Shown here: positions 2,904 through 53,039 of the stretch, piece after piece
How positions within the stretch are numbered: position 1 is the first letter of the stretch
Layout of the letters: each line of letters begins with the position of its first letter
DNA from: Isoetes taiwanensis
Taxonomy: Eukaryota > Streptophyta > Lycopodiopsida > Isoetales > Isoetaceae
Assembly: GCA_021234155.1 (NCBI GenBank)
Contig: JAJEKV010000011.1
Coordinates: forward strand, 10,907,045 to 10,971,044
Length of the DNA: 64,000 nt
Direction of reading: 5' to 3'
Program-made: the position numbers and the translations under genes
The notes under the pieces: generated by a model
Databases searched by the model: none
The model's input: the letters and a program-made list of their open reading frames with translations, nothing else
Told to the model about the DNA's origin: nothing

Positions 2904-3046
2904 TAAAGTAGGCAGTTCCCTAGCACAATAATGTCCATTGTGGCAAAGTAGCAGACGTGGCGGCCCTTAAAGTAAGTCGGTAAGACGTTAATAAAAGGAT
3001 GGAATGTGGGAAATCTGAGGGACATGCTATCCAAAATTTTGAGAAA

Positions 3047-3493
3047 ATGGCTATGGCTATGGCGATGGCGGGGCTGCCCTGTTATTCACAGATAACCGCA
3101 GTAGGGCAGCACCGTTATTCATACAGTGCTGCAAATCCAAGGGGCGGAATGGCGCAGAGAACCAGGCGGGTGCATACGCGAGCACACAAGGTGGAGATAA
3201 GGCATGGCGGAAAGACGCATACATTGGAGGTTGAAGACGGCGAAACCATTCTTGAGAAGGCGCTGGATGCCGGCCTCGATCTGCCGCACGATTGCAAGCT
3301 CGGTGTGTGCATGACTTGCCCGGCCAAGTTAGAAACAGGGCAGGTAAATCAGTCCATGGGTATGCTGAGTGATGATGTTATTGAAAAAGGGTATGCCCTT
3401 CTCTGCTCTTCTTACCCTTTGTCCGACTGCTCCATTCGCACCATTCCTGAGGACGAACTCCTCTCCTTGCAGCTTGTTACTTCTTCTGATTAG
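3047..3493 (+). CDS. FDC1: Ferredoxin C1 (plant-type [2Fe-2S] ferredoxin with C-terminal extension), plastid
   Basis: Predicted 148-residue stromal [2Fe-2S] electron carrier. Cluster ligands are Cys83, Cys88, Cys91 and Cys120, in the plant-type spacing CX4CX2C plus a distal Cys. The text around them (GVCMTCPAKL, then GMLSDDVIEKGYALLC) and the C-terminal extension ending DELLSLQL are diagnostic of ferredoxin C1 rather than photosynthetic Fd, which ends soon after the last Cys. FdC1 proteins are known to accept electrons from photosystem I but to reduce FNR poorly, so a specialised acceptor is likely. Residues 1 to about 45 are rich in Ala, Ser and Arg and lack acidic residues, as expected of a chloroplast transit peptide. 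The start at 3047 (MAMAMAMAG) is preferred; an in-frame ATG at 2999 would add 16 residues that do not look like a transit peptide. Single exon and intact, close to the 154 residues of the Arabidopsis protein. Confidence 0.93.
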   Translation: MAMAMAMAGLPCYSQITAVGQHRYSYSAANPRGGMAQRTRRVHTRAHKVEIRHGGKTHTLEVEDGETILEKALDAGLDLPHDCKLGVCMTCPAKLETGQVNQSMGMLSDDVIEKGYALLCSSYPLSDCSIRTIPEDELLSLQLVTSSD

Positions 3494-18712: not shown

Positions 18713-19285
18713 TTTAATGTTACAGGAGAAGCGATGGCATCATGGCATTTTCACGTTTAGAATCTAGAGAGCACAAGCGCAGATGCTGCAGTGTCGGACG
18801 TGTAGCCAGCAAATTTTTTTCATATCTAATGCAACGTGTGAAAAAATTTACAATAGAAGTGTTGCGCACAAAAATAGCTAATGTGTCGTAATTATAGAGA
18901 GGAATCTTAAAGTAATATGCCAAAAGAGTCATCTTATAACAATTATATATGTTACGATAGAAGGTGGACATGCAACATCTACCTGGTTCTTCTTAGTTCG
19001 TGTGGTGCACCTAGTTTCTTGGTGTTCTATTTCGTGTTTTCTAGAATCAGGGCCGTAAGGCTATAGAGATAAAGGAATTCAGAGGAAGACATTCTTTGGT
19101 GATTTGAAGAAGATGGTGAAGCATCAAATGGATCTTAAAAACCTAGAGAAGTTGGATGTCAAATGCAACAGTCTGGTTCTGAAAAATGTAGGCTATTTTT
19201 GAGGAAAGGAAGGTATGGAATGTCATGAGTGGGGTAGACCAATATCCACTGAGAATGTGGGAGAAAATGATGGAGTGGTAGCTCA

Positions 19286-19462
19286 TGTTGAAAAATGAGC
19301 CTCCTATAATTGGGTGGACAAGCTGGGAATCAAACCTAGGACCTCTTGCTTGCAAGCCAAGTACTCTACCACTGAGCTACTGGCCCTTTGATGGGCTTTT
19401 GGCACTCCTCAACTGAGTCATTCTTCATGTGTGCCCATTACACATACTTCAACATTCCAACA
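19286..19462 (-). repeat. TRIM 3' LTR, 177 bp, complete
   Basis: Starts TGTTGGAATGTTGAAG on the minus strand directly after the purine tract and ends TTTTTCAACA at 19286. It contains the whole tRNA-like segment (19316-19386), unlike the other LTR, which has lost about 35 bp of it. Confidence 0.85.
19316..19386 (-). tRNA. tRNA-Ala(UGC)-like sequence inside the TRIM LTR
   Basis: On the minus strand this 71-base segment divides exactly as a tRNA. Acceptor GGGCCAG, TA, D stem GCTC, D loop AGTGGTA, GAGT, A, anticodon stem CTTGG, loop CTTGCAA, GCAAG, variable AGGTC, T stem CTAGG, loop TTTGATT, CCCAG, acceptor CTTGTCC, then discriminator A. Acceptor pairing holds at 6 of 7 positions including one G-T; the anticodon and T stems have one mismatch each. 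The anticodon is TGC. Box A (TAGCTCAGTGG) and box B (GGTTTGATTCC) of a Pol III promoter are present. It is part of an LTR, so it is probably not a working tRNA gene. Confidence 0.7.
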
Positions 19463-19623
19463 TTCCTCCTTAATGGGCACACCAATCCAGTCCAATCTTC
19501 ACTCCTCGGGCAACTCCACTATTGCAGGAGTTGGGCTTCCACTGGCCAAGCTTTGCTCATTCTCACCTTTACATCACTGGGAACTATCCTAATGTAGTTA
19601 AGCACTCTCTACTTGGGACCATG

Positions 19624-19635
19624 GCTCTGATACCA
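19624..19635 (-). other. TRIM primer-binding site
   Basis: TGGTATCAGAGC on the minus strand, directly after the 5' LTR. It is complementary to the 3' end of initiator tRNA-Met, the primer used by most plant copia-type and TRIM elements. Confidence 0.9.
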
Positions 19636-19775
19636 GGTTGAGAAATGAGCCTTCTATGATTGGGTGGACAGGCTGGGGATCGAACCCACGACCTTACCGG
19701 CCCTTTGATGGGATTTTGGCACTCCTCCACTGATTCTTCATGTGTGCCCATTACACATACTCCAACATTCCAACA
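19636..19775 (-). repeat. TRIM 5' LTR, 140 bp, internally deleted
   Basis: Matches the other LTR at both ends but lacks the D-arm and anticodon-arm part of the tRNA-like segment. The remaining 3' part has a better box B (GGTTCGATCCC) than the complete LTR. Acceptor position 6 is G paired with C here, against A paired with T in the other LTR. Confidence 0.85.
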
Positions 19776-21033
19776 GCTCCATCAGGCAAATAGATATTCG
19801 AGCTAAAACTACCATGATGTTTGGCTTGAAGGACGGACAGATTCCTTTGGTGAACTCAAGGAAACAACAAAGGATGGGTGGAATTGCTTGAAGAAGAACT
19901 TCAAGACACACAACACCTCCCAAAAGCTGCTCTTGTAACAGGAATTTTTCAGTACAAAAAGACGAAAGCTGATGATGATTCGACTGATCATATCGGCCAC
20001 ATGGAGAGCCTGTCAGATCAATTAGCTGCCATGAATCATGCCACATGCAATGAAGATCTGGCTATAGCCTTGTTGGCAAGCCTCCCAAGATCTTATGATT
20101 CCATCAAGCAAATAGCTGTCAGAAAGGAAAGTTGAAAGGTGAGATGGTAATTGGAGCAGTGTTACAGGCTTCTAACCTGTTCAAACACGAAGAAGAAGGA
20201 TCAGCCTATGTAGCTAGTGCAAATCTAAAATGGGTGATTTTGAATGCTGTACGTGTAGAAAAAAGGGACTTATTTCTAGAAACTGTAACCTCGGAAGCTC
20301 AAAGAAAGACGAGGTTAAGGAAAGGCAAAAGAATAATAAGAATGGAAAAGATCGATTCAAGTCTCTGTCAACAGGAAAGAGATGGAGTAATGGAAGATTT
20401 GGTGGGTTATCTCGTGCATATATTGCTGAAGAAAAATCATCTGGAAGTGGAAATGAAGATGACAGTGAGAGTGAAGCCAATATAGCAGTGTTTGATGATG
20501 CAGATCAAGAAACGACGAAAGAATGAGCGTATAAGTTTTTGAGGCAAAGATTGACAGCAATCCAGAGGAAAGAAAGAAAGCAGATCTGACTGAGGGTCAT
20601 GGTTTTTTCGCAAAGGTACAAGTCACAGATATAATAGCACTAACTGCAAAAGTGGATCCAAAGTGAAATTGGATTCTTGATTCTGCAGCAACACATGCCA
20701 TGACCAACAATAAAGATTGCCTCAAATTTTTACAGAAGAAAGAGAAGAATGAAGTGTGAATGGAATAGCAGCTGATTTGAAAATTGAAGGCTATGGAACT
20801 ATGACATATAAATTTGCAGATAATACCTGAGATCTGAAACAGCTCTTGCATGTACCACGACTATCCAAAAATTTGATGTTGTTAGCAAGGCTCACTGATG
20901 CAGGGATTTCAGCATGCATTAACAAAGATGAATTGCTTCTCTTAAATTTAAGAGGGCAAGTTATAGCCAAAGCCAACAGACAAGAACATCTCTACAAGGT
21001 AATTGAAGTTGAGCAAGAAGGTTGACCCTTCTT

Positions 21034-24723: not shown

Positions 24724-27700
24724 TTAAGTAGCAGCAATGATCCATTTAATGTCATATTCAATTTGCTTGATTACGGCCTCCGGATGAGTGATTTCACAGT
24801 TGAAGATAAAATTGTTCCTGCCCTTCCAAATTCTCCATAAAACAATGTACAGCCTCCAATCATTTGGGTTAATGGGCCAGAAGAAGTCCGACGAATTGAG
24901 GGCGTTGAGGTCCAAACCGAGGAGGTTGGAAGCAAGTTCGAGAACCCATTCCGACCACATACAAGATCGAAATAAATGCTCCTCATCTTCCTTATGACTG
25001 AGACATCTTGAGCATACATCAGAATCTGTCATATTAAGCCTGTGCCTTTTAGAATTGGTGGCTAAAGCCTTATGTCAGAGCTGCCACATAAAGGACTTCA
25101 CTTTAGGAGGAATTGGGCAAGCCCACATGAATTTGAGATTACTGATACATCTATCCTCCCCTATCTGCCACTTGGTATGGATAGATATCCTCTGGTTCCT
25201 CATTAAGTATTTATATGCTGCCCTGACTGTAAATCTGGTCGAATCATTATAGTTCCAGTTACAGTTGTCTTCTGACCAGATGCCTTGAGAGAGCGCCATA
25301 CAAATATTGTTGTACAATATCTCTGAGTTCCCATCCTCATTGGCAATCACTGATCTCCTGAAAGGAATTATTCCCTGCTCATCAAAGAAGTCTCTAATGT
25401 AGAAAAGTCCCTTGCTGTTCCAAAGCTTAGCCTGTTCCGGAAAGTGGCATGCTAAACAGAGAGAAGAATCATTAGTAAGCAGACCTGGATTCCAAAAAAT
25501 AGATTGGTCCATGGATAGCCCCTCTTTCCATGTAAACATACCTTTGACTAAATTCCATGCCCTGATCCATTTCTTGATTAAGCCAGGGACCGAATTGGGG
25601 ACAGAGAAGGGAAAATAAATTGAGTGAGGGAGATTGAGATAGAGCTTCTTCCATCCATAGGATAAGCATTTGGTTAAATAATGCCTAATGATAATAGAAA
25701 GTGGATGGTTAATATTATTGTATGCTGCTTTGTAAAAATATTTGGCAGCCAGGGCTATACCCTGTTTCTCAATGTTGATGACTCCCAGACCCCCAATGCT
25801 TTTACTTTTACAGCATTCCTCCATTGCAACCGGGGTCCAACATCTCTTGTTTTGGCCACTAGAGATGAATCTGCCAATGATACTCTGTAACTTGGAGGAG
25901 ACTTTCTTTGGGGCTAAAATGACCGAGGATTGATAGACATGGGAGGAGGATATGACAAAATTAGCTATAATAGCTCTGCCTTGCTTGGAGATATATTTAG
26001 AGTTTAAACTATCCACCTTTTTCTGGAACTTTTCTATAATATCCAACCAAATATCAGAAGGGCTACCTCTAAGAACAAGGGGTATTCCTAAGATTTTTGA
26101 TGAGCTAGTGGGAAGAATATACTTACAGCCCATGAGAGCAGCTGTTTGCTCTCCTTTTACCTGATCTCTAGCTACTACTTTGGATTTGACCGGGTTGATT
26201 TTGCATCCCGAGGCGACCCCGAAATCCTCCAGAATTGTTTGGGTGTTGGAGAGGGACCTGTTATCCATGGAGACTAAAAGAAATGTGTCATCTGCAAAAT
26301 GTCCGTTTAAAATTTGATCCATCACTTCGTTTTCCGGGAGGGAGAGACCTTGGATCAAGTTAGTATTTTTGGCCTCTTCCAGCTTGCTGTGAAGAGCCTC
26401 CATTATGATCAAAAACAGGAAAGGAGCGAATGGGCACCCTTGTTTAACACCTCTTTGCAGAGGAAAGAAGGGGCTACATTCACCATTAATAAGAACTGAA
26501 GATCTGGAGTTTGAGAGAATACCTTTAAAAAGAAGAATTACCTCATTGGAGAAGCCGAGAGCAGTACAGCATTTGAATAAGAAATTCCAGCTGACTGTAT
26601 CGAAGACTTTGGTAATATCTAGCTTTATGAGAGCTATGTCCTGATTGGAGTCTTTTGCCCAGTTCAGCCCAAGCATTGCAGTTACCACGTTGTCAAGGAT
26701 AAATCTATCCTTCAAGTAGGCGGCCTGTGAGGTGCTAATGATTTTCTCCAAAACACTCTTTAGCCTCTTAGCAATGGTCCCTGAAATAATCTTATATATC
26801 ACATTAGTTAAAGAGATGGAACTGTAATCCGAGAGGGTGGCAGGCATATCAGTCTTAGGAATAAGAGTGATCAGACTGGTATTGACTCTTGCATCCAAGT
26901 ATTTAATTTCCCTGAACTCATTAGCTAGCTTAGTTAGGCAAACACCAATTACAGGCCAAGCTTTGATGAAGAACTCTATCGGGAGCCCGTCAGGCCCAGG
27001 GCTTTTACCGTTTTCCATTTCCATGGCAAATTTGAGGAGTTCCTCGTTGGAGAAAGGCTTTATAATATTAAGATTATCCTCAGCACTTACCTTAGCTTGG
27101 AGGTTGATGAAGTCATCCATAGAAGCCAGAGGGCAGTCCTGATTTGTGCCCATTATACCTGTAAAGTGAGTGGCTGCAGCAAGCTTGATTTGATCCTCAT
27201 CCGAAATGTCTTCATCCCCTACTTTTATTTCAAAAATATGATTTTTCTTTTGCCTACCCTTGGCTTTAACAAAGAAGAATTTAGAGCTACTTCTTTCATC
27301 ATTTTTAATTTCAGTGATTTTGGCTTTGAGTCTCCAGCCATCAGCTATCCTTATTTCCTCTTTTTCAATTTCTGCTCTAATATCCTCCTTTTCTTCATCA
27401 GGGGCATTGGGGAGAATATCTCTCAGATTTCGGAGGTGAGCAAGCTTATTATAGTGTATAGATTTTTCCCACTCTTTAAGCCATTTCTTAATGGCCTTGG
27501 CCACTGTAATCCACTAGAACATCCAACCTGACTTTCCAGTAGGCTGGGGGAAATTGGCTATCAGCTCCTTCAATTTGTCCATGAATTCCTCATGCTCGAG
27601 AAGACTGGTATTAAGTTTGAAGTATGTCTTCCTCTTTTTGCTGTCAGAATTGCAAGCCTTGATTCTCAACTATTGGGGGTAGTGGTCAGACAGAGTATAA

Positions 27701-28377
27701 CCTTCCATATTGTTAACTCTGCAACTTTCATTCCAAAGATTTTCTGATAGATAAAATCTGTCATGTAGACACAATGTAGGATCCAACCTTTTATCGGTCC
27801 AACTGTAAGAATTGGGTTTGGTTCTAGCAAGAATGAGATTATGGCTCTTAGTTAGATCCATCCAAGCTTCCTTTTCAAGTTTCCCGAGGGGCCTATAATT
27901 TTTGTTCTTCATGAAGCTGTTGGTCACCATATTTAAATCTCCACCCAGAATGCATTCATTGAAATCAAGGCTATCAAGGCTACTTTTAACCTTTTTCCAA
28001 ACCTTCACCCTTTCTGTGGGGCTGTTGTAAGCATAAATGTTCACAAGAGCCAATTTAATTCTGTGAATAGTGCAAAGGAGGATCTGCCACCTGCCATTTC
28101 TGTCATTAACCATATACTTATTAGAAATATTCAGACTATGCCTCCACGCAATAGCTATTCCTGCAGAAGAGTCATTAGCGGGGATAGACCAGATATAATA
28201 ATTAGGAGGGAGAGTTCTACTAATAATGATCTCATGATCTAAACTATGAATTTTATGCTCTTGAAGAAACAATACATCAGGGTTAAGGGAGGAGAGACAA
28301 ACCTTTAATCTATCCCTTTTAATTATACTATTAATACCCTGGCGATTCCAGGTAACACAGCAAATGTCCTTGTCCAT
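24724..28377 (-). pseudogene. LINE ORF2: endonuclease-reverse transcriptase, three stops
   Basis: The APE-type endonuclease covers 28377-27670, with QEHK, GGDLNM and LSDHYP blocks; LSDHYP carries the catalytic Asp and His. A TAG at 27670-27672 follows, then a linker and a second TAG at about 27531, both in the frame shared by the whole ORF. The RT domain (27504-25078) has SPGPDGLPIEFF, LITLIPK, RGVKQGCPFAPFLF and HFADDTFLL, the last being the F/YxDD active site. A TGA at 25075-25077 interrupts the C-terminal zinc-binding region (CPIPPKVKSFMWQL before it, CSRCLSHKEDEEHLFRSC after it). The frame then stays open to 24724. About 1,217 codons in one frame, with no frameshift, only stops. Confidence 0.9.
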
Positions 28378-28478
28378 CAGTACCTATACTTACCCCAAGC
28401 CATCCCAGCTTGAACAGTTTGCTTCCTTGGGCTTGATGCCAAAGTAAATCTTCTTTTTGCCCCTACCTTTCTTCTTCT

Positions 28479-39953: not shown

Positions 39954-41637
39954 ATGGAGGCCTCATCACAAGAGGCGCGTTTACTGCAGGCTTCTGCAGA
40001 TAATCTTGCAACTACTACAGAGTCTTGCTGGTCCCATGAACAAGACAAACTTTTCGAGTCTTTCTTATGTGAAGCTTATAGCAAGAATGGCTCTGAAATT
40101 GCATGGGAGAAGCTTGAACCTAAAGTTTTTGGAAAAGACAAGGCTGAAATTCGGAAGCACTATGAGATCTTGATTGAGGATATAAAGAGGATTGAGTCTG
40201 ATCTGGTACCATTGCCAAACTATGCTATGCCTTCTGTTTCCTCTGATGGGACTTCAGATGCTGCTATTAGTGGTTCAGAGAGTCCTACCTCAAGAAGGGG
40301 TGGTTCTTTTCTTTCCTCAACCACTAGCACAGTCTCCAGTATGTTGACAAAGAGTGGCTCTGGAAAGGCATCTGAGCAGGAGCGACGTAAGGGCATTCCC
40401 TGGACAGAGGAAGAGCACAGGTTGGTTCAACTTTGCTTTTCAGGAATGAAGCATAGGTCTGTTTATTCATTTTTACTGTCAGTGAACTTTGAAAAGCATA
40501 TTTTCTTTGTTGAAAGCTATATATGGATGTCAGTGCATGGCGTCCTACCGTTCTGATGGTCTCCAAAATAGACTTTTCTTTATCTCCTTTCTGATGGTCT
40601 CTAAAATAGTCCCTTTTTTTTTTCTCCTTTCAATACCCACCTTGCATATGGTATGAGAGAGCCACATTTTGCATTGGCGAGCCAAGAATGGGGAACTTCT
40701 TGGGGGTTTTTGCTCAGTAGTATTTGTTGATATATCATCTATATCATCTGAACATTAGTCATTCATCCTTAAGGAGACCATATGCGCAGGTGTGTAATTT
40801 ATAAAGGATAACTGTCTATAGATTTGGAAGTTAAAGGTCCATTTAGATCAGACATAGCTGTTGGCTTGCACAGACCATATATTATTTATAGTTCCGTAGA
40901 GTTGATGTATATTTTGGATGGAAGCTAAAGGTCCATTTGGATCACCATGACATAGCTGTGGGCTTGCACAGAAGCATAAATTATTTGTAGTTCTTTAGGG
41001 TTGAGACACATTTTAGATGTTCATTTTATAAGTTATGGAAATGCAATTGTTGCAGCTCGGCAAAGCACGGTCATGTAACTAGCCCACTGTAGGAGTGGGG
41101 ATGATTAGTCTCAAATTTCACTGCAAAGCCATCTTCCTGTAATTCATCTGATCTAACTTTATACTTGTTTTGCTGGCTTTGTACAGGTTATTTTTACTGG
41201 GCTTGGAGAAATTTGGCAAGGGCGATTGGCGGAGTATTTCCAGGAATTTTGTGATTTCTCGAACCCCAACACAAGTAGCCAGTCATGCACAGAAATATTT
41301 TATTCGGCTAAACTCCATCAACAAGGATAAGAGACGGACTAGCATCCATGACATAACTAGTGTTAACAACAATGGGGAGGCCAGGCAACAGAGCCACCCA
41401 CCCATTACAGGTCAAGCAAATAATATGTCATCACCTATGAGTTCTCCAGGTGTGGGTATGTACATGAACCCTATGATGCAGCCCATTGCACCAACAGTGA
41501 CTTCTTCAGGGCCCATTCCTTCAGCTATTCACAATTCCCAGTTTGTACATTTTGCAAGAGCAATGCCTAACCATGGTGCGAATATGCCGCCACCAATTTC
41601 TTATTCTGTGCCACAGCAAGCAATGCACCATGGCTGA
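39954..41637 (+). CDS. DIVARICATA/SRM1-type MYB transcription factor, two exons
   Basis: Nuclear DNA-binding regulator of 305 residues. Exon 1 is 39954-40420, exon 2 is 41187-41637; the intron begins GTTGGT and ends TACAG and splits an Arg codon, and the joined frame is open to TGA. An N-terminal SANT/MYB domain (residues about 24-82, starting [11 protein letters not shown]) is followed by a Ser/Thr-rich linker. The second MYB repeat (about 146-200) reads [16 protein letters not shown] and ends in SHAQKYF (188-194), the signature of the I-box-binding R-R-type family including DIV and SRM1. The C-terminus is Met/Pro/Ser-rich. Family members control floral asymmetry, salt and ABA responses or starch genes; which applies here cannot be told. 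The start is chosen because MEASS directly precedes the first domain and fits family length. Confidence 0.93.
40551..40630 (+). repeat. Tandem duplication in the MYB intron, period 38 bp
   Basis: TTCTGATGGTCTC, AAAATAG and a T-rich tail ending CTCCTTTC repeat twice. Confidence 0.85.
40826..41017 (+). repeat. Tandem duplication in the MYB intron, period 94 bp
   Basis: Both units contain TAAAGGTCCATTT, GACATAGCTGT, GGCTTGCACAGA and GTAGTTC/ATAGTTC blocks with scattered differences. Confidence 0.85.
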
Positions 41638-49679: not shown

Positions 49680-52210
49680 ACAGGCTGGAACTTTCGCGAG
49701 TGATAAGCGATCAGATGTAGCCCATGGTCATCCCCCTCCTATGACGGGATACCATCAAGACCAAAATCAGAAGCATTTGCTTCGACAATATATGGGCATG
49801 AAGGATCTGCATGAGCAAGAATTCGAGCCATGGTAAATGCATGCTTCAGGGTAACGAAAGCAGTTTCTGCTTTCATGCTCCATTTAAATGGTATATCTTT
49901 TGCCGTGAGGCATGTCAAAGGAAGGGCAATCTCTGAATAATCTCAAATAAAATGTCGATAGAAGTTGGCAAATCCAAGAAAACATTGAATATCTCAGATG
50001 GAATAAGGTGTTTGTATCTCAGATGGAATAAGGTGTTTTCCACTCCAAAATAGTGCTGACCTTTTTGAGATCCATAGAGACTCCATGAGGAGTGACGATA
50101 GCCAAGAAACTCCATAGCATCCTGATCGAATTGACCCATACCGAATATGAAATGTTGTCTTTCATCCTCTCGGATTCAAATGAGATCGTAGGCATCCCGA
50201 AGGTCAGGGTCTTCGTAAAATAGCACGTAGCTCTGGAACTGGATAGCGATTCGGGACTGTGATCTTGTTAAGGTCATGATAATCGTCTTTTTTTTGACAA
50301 AGAATATGGATGCTCCAGTAGGGAACTGAGAATGTTGAATAAATTCTCGTAGCTAGATTTTCTTCAATATACTCCCGTAAAACCTTCAACTATGTGGGGG
50401 AGAGATCGTATATGGTTCTATATGATAGCATCATCCTGGGCTGCAAATCAATAGGACAATCATATGGACGGTGCTCTGGAAGCTTGATGGCCTTAACTTT
50501 GTCGAAAACATCAGAAAAGTCGTCATATTTGTCTGGGAGCATTGGAGCAGAGTTTGTTCGAGCAGAACTAGTCGATGGATGATTTTAGATTGCAAATACT
50601 GAGCCTAGATATTGTCTTCCAGATTTAATAGACTCATGAAGAAAGATTTTTGAGATACGGAACTGGGGACGTGAAGAAGGCTTTACTGAAACAATGGCCT
50701 GGACAGGAGCAGGATCAAGAACAGAAACAAGAGCAAGAAATGAAGTAGGAACAGGAGCAGGAACAGGAACTGGAGCTGGGGCAAAAACAGGGGCATCGTC
50801 TAGAACATAAAGTGAGGCAATGATAGGAACTAGAACAGACACGGAACAAAAGCATAAACTGGAATATGAATAAGAGAAGAATCAGGAGCTCACGATACTG
50901 TACGTACTGAAATCAATGCGGATACAGAGACAAGAACTGTAGATAGATCAGAACTGGGGCAAGAGCCACAAATCGAAGCGATCTAAAGCGCCAATCAATC
51001 TATGGGTTATGCAACTTGAGCCAAGGAAACCCACGACTACTAATGCATGAGGCTAGTGATTAGACTGAAAGAAATACTACAAGACGCTCCCTAGATCAGA
51101 ACCCGAAGGGGCGTAGTACATTTTGTGACTGCGTTCCACACGTCCATCAATCACACCAATAGAGCTGGGGTGCTTAACCCTGCTTCTAGGGATGCATGCT
51201 TAGATGCACTATCCATGAAGCAAGCATTTGCACCACTATTAAGTTGCACCAATGCTTCTAATGTCTCGACCTCTGACTCCAATGATATAGAAATGAAAAA
51301 CTCCTTACTAACCTTGTTAGAAGGGATAAGCTCTTCACTACTTGTGGGGAGGAGTTTGAGGGATGGTGGCCAGTCGTCAAAAGATCCAACTATTCGAACC
51401 ATCCCTTGGAGTTTTCCAACTGATTTGGGCACTAACGGGACACTCACAAGCGATATGGCCAGCCCCACCACAATAGAGGCAGAGGTTAGCCTCTCTTTGA
51501 TGCTGTTTCTTGACCGCAGACAAGGGCCCTCGAACTGCACGGTCAATCTGCGTAGGTACTGGGCCATCTGATTTAGAGAGCGTGGGCAGGTGTAGAAGTT
51601 GTTGTGACTATTGGAGCTTGCAAAATTACAGAAGCAAACTAATTCTGTCTTTATTATCTATGTTTAAAAAAAAATGATTATATCACAATGAACCTCAAAC
51701 CTGATAGTTTCATCTAGAACTCTGGGATCCTCCATGGTCAGCAACATATCCTTCACATCCTTGCGGAGCTCTCTTCGAAAACAATCTCGAAGGGTTACAT
51801 CATTCCAGATCGTATCTATGGCAATCTGTCGAAACTCAAAGGCGTAAACTGAAGTTGGACGAGAACCTTGCCTGAGGTTGCCAAGCTTGGTAACTGTTGT
51901 GTACTGTCGATCGGTGTCTCCAAAACATGCCTCAAGTTCAACAGTGAATGCGACAAAATTCTGCAATTCATGAGCCTCCCTCTCCAGCAAGGGGGAAAAC
52001 CAACTCAATGTTGGCCCAGAAAGCAGGGAGCCAACTAGCCTGGCATGTTCACGATCTGTTGGATACTTGTGAGGGTGGAACCAAATAACAAGCCGAATCT
52101 GATTCAAAAAATCCGGAAGCTTGGATCTAGTACCATCAAATTTCTTCGGCAACCAAATATTAGGCTCGATGCTCCCCCTCCTCTTCCCAGAGCTAGAGGT
52201 TGATTCACGA
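49680..52210 (-). mobile_element. Ty3/gypsy retrotransposon remnant (gag, protease, RT, RNase H pieces)
   Basis: Minus-strand order matches the element. Gag (52152-51664) has PKKFDGTRSKLPDFLNQIRL and an LEACFGD block. A CCHC knuckle CLYCGGAGHIACEC at about 51480-51430 is intact. The protease reads VQLNSGANACFMD at about 51240, where the catalytic Asp of DSG is Asn. The RT begins at 50389 with LREYIEENLA and DYHDLNKITVPNRYPVPEL. After an internal loss, a connection region with FDQDAMEFLGY (50139) and RNase H-like AFTMARILAHADPSCPYIVE (about 49860-49740) follow. Frames shift between parts and most of the RT core is missing. Long terminal repeats were not identified. Confidence 0.85.
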
Positions 52211-53039
52211 GATGCAATGCATTATCTGAGCTCTTTATTGTCCAATTGCAACTGTTGACGCATTTTATTGTCTTCAAATCTGCAGCAAGATGCCATTCAA
52301 TCTAGTACACATCATATCCAAGAACTGCAAGCTTTTCTCCAAATCTTTTAGTATGCTGTGATTTTCTTATGGTACCTGAAATAGACCAACCTATCAAATG
52401 TGATCTAGACTAGACGAAAAACTTACTGTCTTTATTTGAGTCTTCATCGATCCTGTATTCACCAAATCTCTATTCATTAGACTTAGTGAAACCCTCTCGT
52501 ACTTCTCACCTTTCACCAATTCCATTTCATCTTACTTCAAAATAGCACTCTTCTCCCTTCATGTCATAGAATCGAACCAAAAGCAGAAGCATTTTACTTA
52601 AGTCTATCCGACAATTGTTATTTTTATTACGAGACAAAATCACCGAATGGAGCAAAAAAATTGGCAAGGACCTGTAAGGGATTCCAGTACAAACTATCAT
52701 GAACCTACGCAAAACAAGAAAAATACGCGAAGAATACGCAAGAAGTACGGAAGAAATATGCTAAGATTGGCAAAGAATCCGATATATGATGAACAAACAA
52801 GAATACAATGGCCCGAAGGCAAGCAGAAACACGAGAGAGATGCCTAGAAGGCTCAAGACTGGCATTGAACCGGAATGGTTCGACAAGAAGGAGGCGCCTC
52901 TATATATGTCTAGGCCAATGTCGGGATCGCACCACTCCACTGGACAAGATCGTGCCATACTTCTCCTACTCTCTTCATCGTTGACTATTTCTCAACTAAG
53001 CCATTAGCTCCAACTATGTGGCCTTCATGTTTGATACTG

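Follow-up and report, generated by a model that had tools for sequence, protein, structure and literature searches.

A TRIM family of Isoetes taiwanensis with a tRNA-Ala-like segment in its long terminal repeats

A family of short, non-coding LTR retrotransposons (TRIMs) in the lycophyte Isoetes taiwanensis carries in its LTRs a tRNA-Ala(UGC)-like segment that includes boxes A and B of an RNA polymerase III (Pol III) promoter. One copy lies in the stretch of 64,000 nucleotides that was analyzed here (the window), and the copies recovered from the host genome show that the tRNA segment is a trait of the family. The family is a further one of the Helenus type of TRIMs, probably from a second lycophyte, and larger than that of Selaginella. 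As judged from sequence features, the tRNA boxes in the end repeats quite likely drive the element through Pol III, with the proteins supplied by a helper.

The element in the window and its copies in the host genome

The initial annotation described an LTR element of 490 bp with a primer-binding site (PBS) for initiator tRNA-Met, a purine tract and TGTTG...CAACA LTRs, and this element is confirmed on the minus strand, where it reads, from 19775 to 19286, LTR, PBS, internal region, polypurine tract (PPT) and LTR (Table 1). The fold and the LTRs reported there stand as well, and two details had to be amended, namely that the tRNA in the 5' LTR has a central deletion of 33 nt and that the TTTTT run is rare in the family. 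No reading frame of 150 or more amino acids was found to overlap the element. The 5' LTR ends in C at a base that is A in other copies. The two LTRs align in three repeat blocks with 85, 90 and 98% identity and diverge by a K2P distance of 0.092; this copy is an old insertion. The perfect inverted repeat around the junction of the PPT and the 3' LTR is also predicted in the copies L005, L010, L019 and L022, with a shorter stem in L041, and would place the junction in the loop of a hairpin, in RNA or in single-stranded DNA.

Table 1. Features of the TRIM copy in the window
Feature	Positions	Strand	Remarks
Whole TRIM copy, 490 bp, non-coding	19286..19775	minus	5' end at 19775
5' LTR, 140 bp	19636..19775	minus	33-nt deletion within the tRNA segment
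tRNA remnant in the 5' LTR, 39 of 72 nt	19665..19703	minus	both tRNA ends kept
PBS TGGTATCAGAGCC, initiator tRNA-Met	19623..19635 (19635-19623)	minus	complementarity to host iMet gene L078
Internal region, 173 bp in this copy	19463..19635	minus	typically ~193 bp elsewhere
Polypurine tract TAAGGAGGAA	19463..19472	minus	adjoins the 3' LTR
Perfect inverted repeat, 12 bp, around the PPT/3'-LTR junction	19429..19482	minus	arms 19429-19440 and 19471-19482
3' LTR, 177 bp, TGTTG...CAACA	19286..19462	minus	intact LTR
tRNA-Ala(UGC)-like segment	19315..19386	minus	ARAGORN; Rfam RF00005, 56.7 bits; genome copies
Target-site duplication, one side, gctca	19281..19285		flank of the element
Target-site duplication, other side, gctcc	19776..19780		4 of 5 bases match gctca

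Several other features were identified in the window. About 150 bp past the 5' end of the TRIM, at 19929-20132, there is a Copia-type gag fragment (PF14223, E 7e-9), and another retrotransposon gag fragment (PF03732, with a weak match to Ty3 capsid) is located at 51664-52221 on the minus strand. A LINE-like element (25075-28383, minus strand) has frames for a reverse transcriptase (PF00078) and an endonuclease (PF03372). The host genes include one for a 2Fe-2S ferredoxin-like protein (PF00111) at 2984-3493 and one for a Myb-like protein (PF00249) with a SHAQKYF motif, read by eye, at 41152-41637, both on the plus strand.

The host genome (1,658,258,908 bases in 1,110 contigs) was searched with the whole LTR (502 first-look candidates), the internal region (229 candidates) and a U3 query that consists of the 76 nt of the LTR upstream of the tRNA (421 candidates); 40 candidates from each search were scored. 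The internal-region search is independent of the tRNA and was therefore used as the fair sample. A tRNA match that reaches the Rfam gathering score lies, within the fetched stretch, beside 37 of these 40 places (the window copy; L002, L003, L005, L006, L009, L016, L018 and L019; and 28 of the 31 loci L021-L051), and in the three places that have no such match (L031, L042 and L048) the LTRs are truncated or deleted. The U3 query contributed 16 further loci, 13 of them with a tRNA match and three (L083, L088 and L093) under the gathering score. The tRNA is often present in both LTRs of a copy. The genome of 1.66 Gb contains 132 exact occurrences of the 40-nt core of the tRNA (0 for the reversed control), and a looser pattern that combines box B, a spacer of 35-65 nt and the LTR end with the PBS identifies 70 junctions (control 0), all of which resemble one family by eye.

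The structure of the family was derived from 18 LTR pairs, hand-chosen among the loci in which both LTRs were recovered. The LTRs of these pairs are mostly 177 bp long, begin with TGTTGG and end with CAACA, usually with TGGTATCAGAGCC directly after, and the usual PPT is aagggggaa. The window copy apart, the 17 elements are about 530-557 bp long, as measured with a 176-nt query that makes the totals 1 bp short. Target-site duplications (TSDs) match at 4-5 of the 5 bases in 16 of the 18 pairs, and the remaining two, L015 and L028, start at the PPT of another unit. The LTRs are identical in 7 of the 18 pairs, so that some copies are recent and the family has been active recently. Tandem TRIM units (internal-LTR-internal-LTR) are found at L015, L028 and L034, and duplicated pieces of the LTR or the internal region at L002, L008 and L012. 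Tandem units are also familiar from Cassandra and from further TRIMs of plants.

The tRNA segment of the LTR

In the entire 64-kb window, ARAGORN predicts a single tRNA, tRNA-Ala(tgc), at 19386-19313 on the minus strand, and the Rfam search at the gathering score likewise yields a single match, to the tRNA family RF00005 (19386-19315, 56.7 bits vs 29). The tRNA fold with a UGC anticodon that had been noticed in the intact LTR is thus recovered by both programs. The covariance model also accepts the segment in other copies; the highest score in the fetched loci is 62.3 bits, and a copy on C938 reaches 63.4 bits. The 63 tRNA matches listed for the host genome, family copies included, range from 43.7 to 72.6 bits.

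Box A is TAGCTCAGTGG both in the window copy and in the commonest form of the family. Box B is GGTTTGATTCC in the window copy and GGTTCGATCCC in the commonest form, with GGTTT in the former where the latter has GGTTC. The commonest form contains TRGCY and YGG in box A and GGTTC in box B, the motifs by which Helenus and TRIMp3 elements are recognized. Among the 84 gapless tRNA segments drawn from 95 aligned LTRs, the commonest string is present in 68 for box A and in 57 for box B; G3:U70 is found in 83 of these segments, A73 in 83 and the UGC anticodon in 81. The G3:U70 pair is the identity pair of alanine tRNAs. In the commonest form, 19 of the 21 cloverleaf pairs are standard, and C5-U68 and G31-G39 are mismatched. 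Judged by these sequence features, the LTR segment is tRNA-derived, with the alanine features UGC, G3:U70 and A73.

A search for the donor of the segment found no parent among 29 distinct tRNA sequences sampled from host loci. Three of these 29 are copies of the element itself (L072, L075 and L076), and the closest of the others is a tRNA-Ala(AGC) with 76% identity. An origin from tRNA-Cys was also considered and was dropped after a pattern for it gave no match. The minimum-energy fold of the LTR tRNA is not a cloverleaf, and an equal or better fold was obtained for 176 and 114 of 200 shuffles; given that two real host tRNAs similarly fail to give a cloverleaf as the minimum-energy fold, thermodynamic folding is uninformative for or against this structure. 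The host tRNA genes occur in dense clusters, with 151 tRNA-Ala pattern matches and 45 for initiator tRNA-Met, and the cluster contigs include C66, C232 and C926 for tRNA-Ala and C534, C971 and C1021 for initiator tRNA-Met. Contig C1101 contains many tRNA matches as well, and its fetched part encodes tRNA-Ile.

Proposed transcription and mobilization of the family

In the mechanism proposed here, Pol III would be recruited by boxes A and B of the tRNA-derived segment in the 5' LTR, start near LTR position 77, read through U5, the internal region of ~193 bp and the 3' LTR, where the sense strand rarely contains a T4 terminator, and stop at a T-run in the flank. The two copies of the tRNA would then serve as the repeated R region in strand transfer. 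The first strand would be primed at the PBS by initiator tRNA-Met and the second strand by the purine tract, both of which are present in the sequence, and gag, reverse transcriptase and integrase would come from an autonomous element, probably of the Copia type, whose PBS placement and CAACA end match those of the TRIM. Integration occurs with 5-bp duplications, as seen in the genome copies.

On the sense strand, from the tRNA of the 5' LTR to the end of the 3' LTR, no run of four or more T residues was found in 17 of the 18 elements, the exception being the window copy. Between the tRNA start and the LTR end, such a run is present in 2 of the 95 aligned LTRs (the window and L082) and missing from 93. 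The TTTTT near the LTR end of the window copy also appears in at least one of the 70 junctions (C245:29575). A built-in terminator was considered and rejected given the rarity of this TTTTT among the copies: any T4 run after the tRNA start is confined to 2 of the 95 LTRs, with at least one further copy elsewhere in the genome. Dinucleotide shuffles of the 17 elements are also T4-free in about 50-68% of cases, so that the scarcity of T4 runs, which would permit a full-length Pol III transcript, is weak evidence.

The PBS together with the next base comprises 14 nt that are complementary to the 3' end of the host initiator tRNA-Met (gene L078) with CCA added. Self-priming by the LTR tRNA was rejected, its longest complement to the PBS being 5 nt vs 14 nt for the initiator tRNA. 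The genome has 126 sites at which CAACA, preceded by a base that is not T, stands directly before TGGTATCAGAGC; among the first 100 sites listed, one is a TRIM copy, L022. Ten of these loci were fetched, and four of them (L095, L097, L099 and L102) belong to one family, 92-95% alike. A domain scan of L097 and L099 identifies a Copia-type gag and a GAG-pre-integrase domain in both, and a zinc knuckle in L097. No leader shared with the TRIM internal region beyond the PBS region was found in the ten fetched candidate-helper loci. These domains and the common PBS placement suggest that the autonomous helper is likely a Copia element.

A different reading, which appears unlikely, is that the TRIM is transcribed by RNA polymerase II and that the tRNA is a passenger, acquired from a tRNA gene or a SINE and hitch-hiking in the LTR. 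Against it, TATAAA is present in only 1 of the 95 aligned LTRs, with TATATA and AATAAA in 0 of 95, and boxes A and B retain their commonest strings in most of the gapless segments (68 and 57 of 84, respectively). The pattern of substitutions bears on this question in both directions. In the first alignment (77 LTRs), the ratio of non-deamination rates in the tRNA relative to the flanks is 0.285 (95% interval 0.11-0.57), and in the internal-ascertained subset (60 LTRs) it is 0.348 (0.14-0.69); furthermore, non-deamination changes common to at least three loci are found in the first alignment at 0 tRNA columns vs 8 of 87 flank columns (p 0.0096), which argues against a passenger. In the larger alignment (95 LTRs), with events counted once per locus and stratified by base, the tRNA block shows no clear deficit of changes, as a passenger would predict: the stratified odds ratio is 0.73, a value that 31 of 161 shifted blocks equal or undercut, and it becomes 0.81, equalled or undercut by 40 of 161 blocks, when loci retrieved by the whole-LTR query alone are left out. 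In this larger set, the common changes are about as frequent in the tRNA (7 of 68 columns) as in the flanks (10 of 87 columns), so the contrast seen in the first alignment is not repeated, and many differences in the tRNA are C-to-T and G-to-A, as in the flanks, which also fits a passenger. Divergent LTRs, few in number, supply much of the difference. Given that the treatments disagree in strength, the extra conservation of the tRNA segment is rated as suggestive only.

It is very improbable that the LTR supplies a functional tRNA-Ala, excised from the transcript and entering the translation pool, and that the family thereby spreads tRNA genes. The alanine features of the gapless segments (UGC in 81, G3:U70 in 83 and A73 in 83 of 84) are compatible with such a function, as are the Rfam scores (62.3 bits in many copies and 63.4 in the copy on C938), which fall within the range listed for the genome. 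However, the commonest form contains the two mismatched pairs C5-U68 and G31-G39, RNase P and RNase Z would be expected to cut the template RNA during processing, none of the tests made points to selection acting on single copies, and a functional tRNA from Helenus was judged unlikely by Kojima 2024 (PMC10886601). Little credence can likewise be given to the broader proposition that the LTRs of this lycophyte retrotransposon family carry an alanine-chargeable tRNA, such that one RNA is both the template for reverse transcription and a tRNA precursor. If this were true, the tRNA-Ala genes of the host would increase by hundreds as the family amplifies, and the supply of template for the element would compete with tRNA processing by the host RNase P and RNase Z.

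The last alternative, a chance insertion of a SINE or a tRNA pseudogene into one LTR of the window copy, would account for the full tRNA being present in only one LTR within the window, but the genome copies refute it (the tRNA accompanies 37 of 40 internal-ascertained places and 13 of 16 U3-query loci, often in both LTRs), and in the window copy both ends of this tRNA survive in the other LTR.

Relationship to Helenus, Cassandra and SINEs

The initial annotation suspected that TRIMs of this kind were new, which is not the case: TRIMs with tRNA-like LTRs were published by Kojima 2024 (PMC10886601) under the name Helenus, and the same paper proposes the term TRIMp3 for Helenus, Cassandra and Ajax together. 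The only plant given for Helenus in that description is Selaginella moellendorffii, with an LTR of 120 bp and an internal region of 85 bp. TRIMs in Selaginella were also reported by Gao et al. 2016 (PMC4717578), in whose main text the word tRNA does not appear. Similarly to Helenus, including Helenus-1_SMo, the Isoetes elements are shorter than 1000 bp, have two LTRs and no coding capacity, carry in these LTRs a tRNA segment that includes boxes A and B, and possess a PBS and a PPT. The 5-bp TSDs are common to the Isoetes family and to plant Helenus as published, fungal Helenus having TSDs of the same length, and the probable dependence on Copia elements is also stated for fungal Helenus (PMC10886601). 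The two lycophyte families, compared by description, differ in size (an LTR of 177 bp and an internal region of ~193 bp in Isoetes vs 120 and 85 bp in Selaginella). In the Isoetes family, the anticodon and the G3:U70 pair both indicate alanine, whereas many Helenus families show disagreement of isotype (PMC10886601). Among the papers listed in a literature search, which did not extend to Repbase, no title dealt with this family in Isoetes.

Cassandra is a plant TRIM that bears 5S rRNA. The likeness to Cassandra noted at the outset holds, in that both are non-coding TRIMs of the same architecture, whose LTRs hold a small-RNA gene with its internal Pol III promoter and which also occur in tandem arrays, the tRNA taking the place of the 5S rRNA. 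The Isoetes family was not assigned to Cassandra, which has 5S rRNA in the LTR, because Rfam detected only tRNA in the scanned element loci, that is, in the window and the fetched copies. The family also resembles tRNA-derived SINEs, which have Pol III boxes derived from a tRNA and no coding capacity. SINEs, however, lack LTRs, are mobilized by LINEs and have TSDs of variable length, whereas the Isoetes family has LTR pairs, a PBS, a PPT and 5-bp TSDs and therefore moves by the LTR route rather than by target-primed reverse transcription.

The Isoetes family probably adds a second lycophyte to a kind of element known in plants from one species in the 2024 description. The Pol III transcription of Helenus is described as unproven by its author (Kojima 2024, PMC10886601), and lycophytes would then be a place for an experimental test of whether Pol III drives tRNA-bearing TRIMs. 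Many retrotransposon copies can be counted among the predicted tRNA genes of such genomes; in Table 2 of Kojima 2024 (PMC10886601), 133 of the 137 predicted tRNA-Ala-TGC genes of the rust fungus Puccinia triticina are attributed to a Helenus family.
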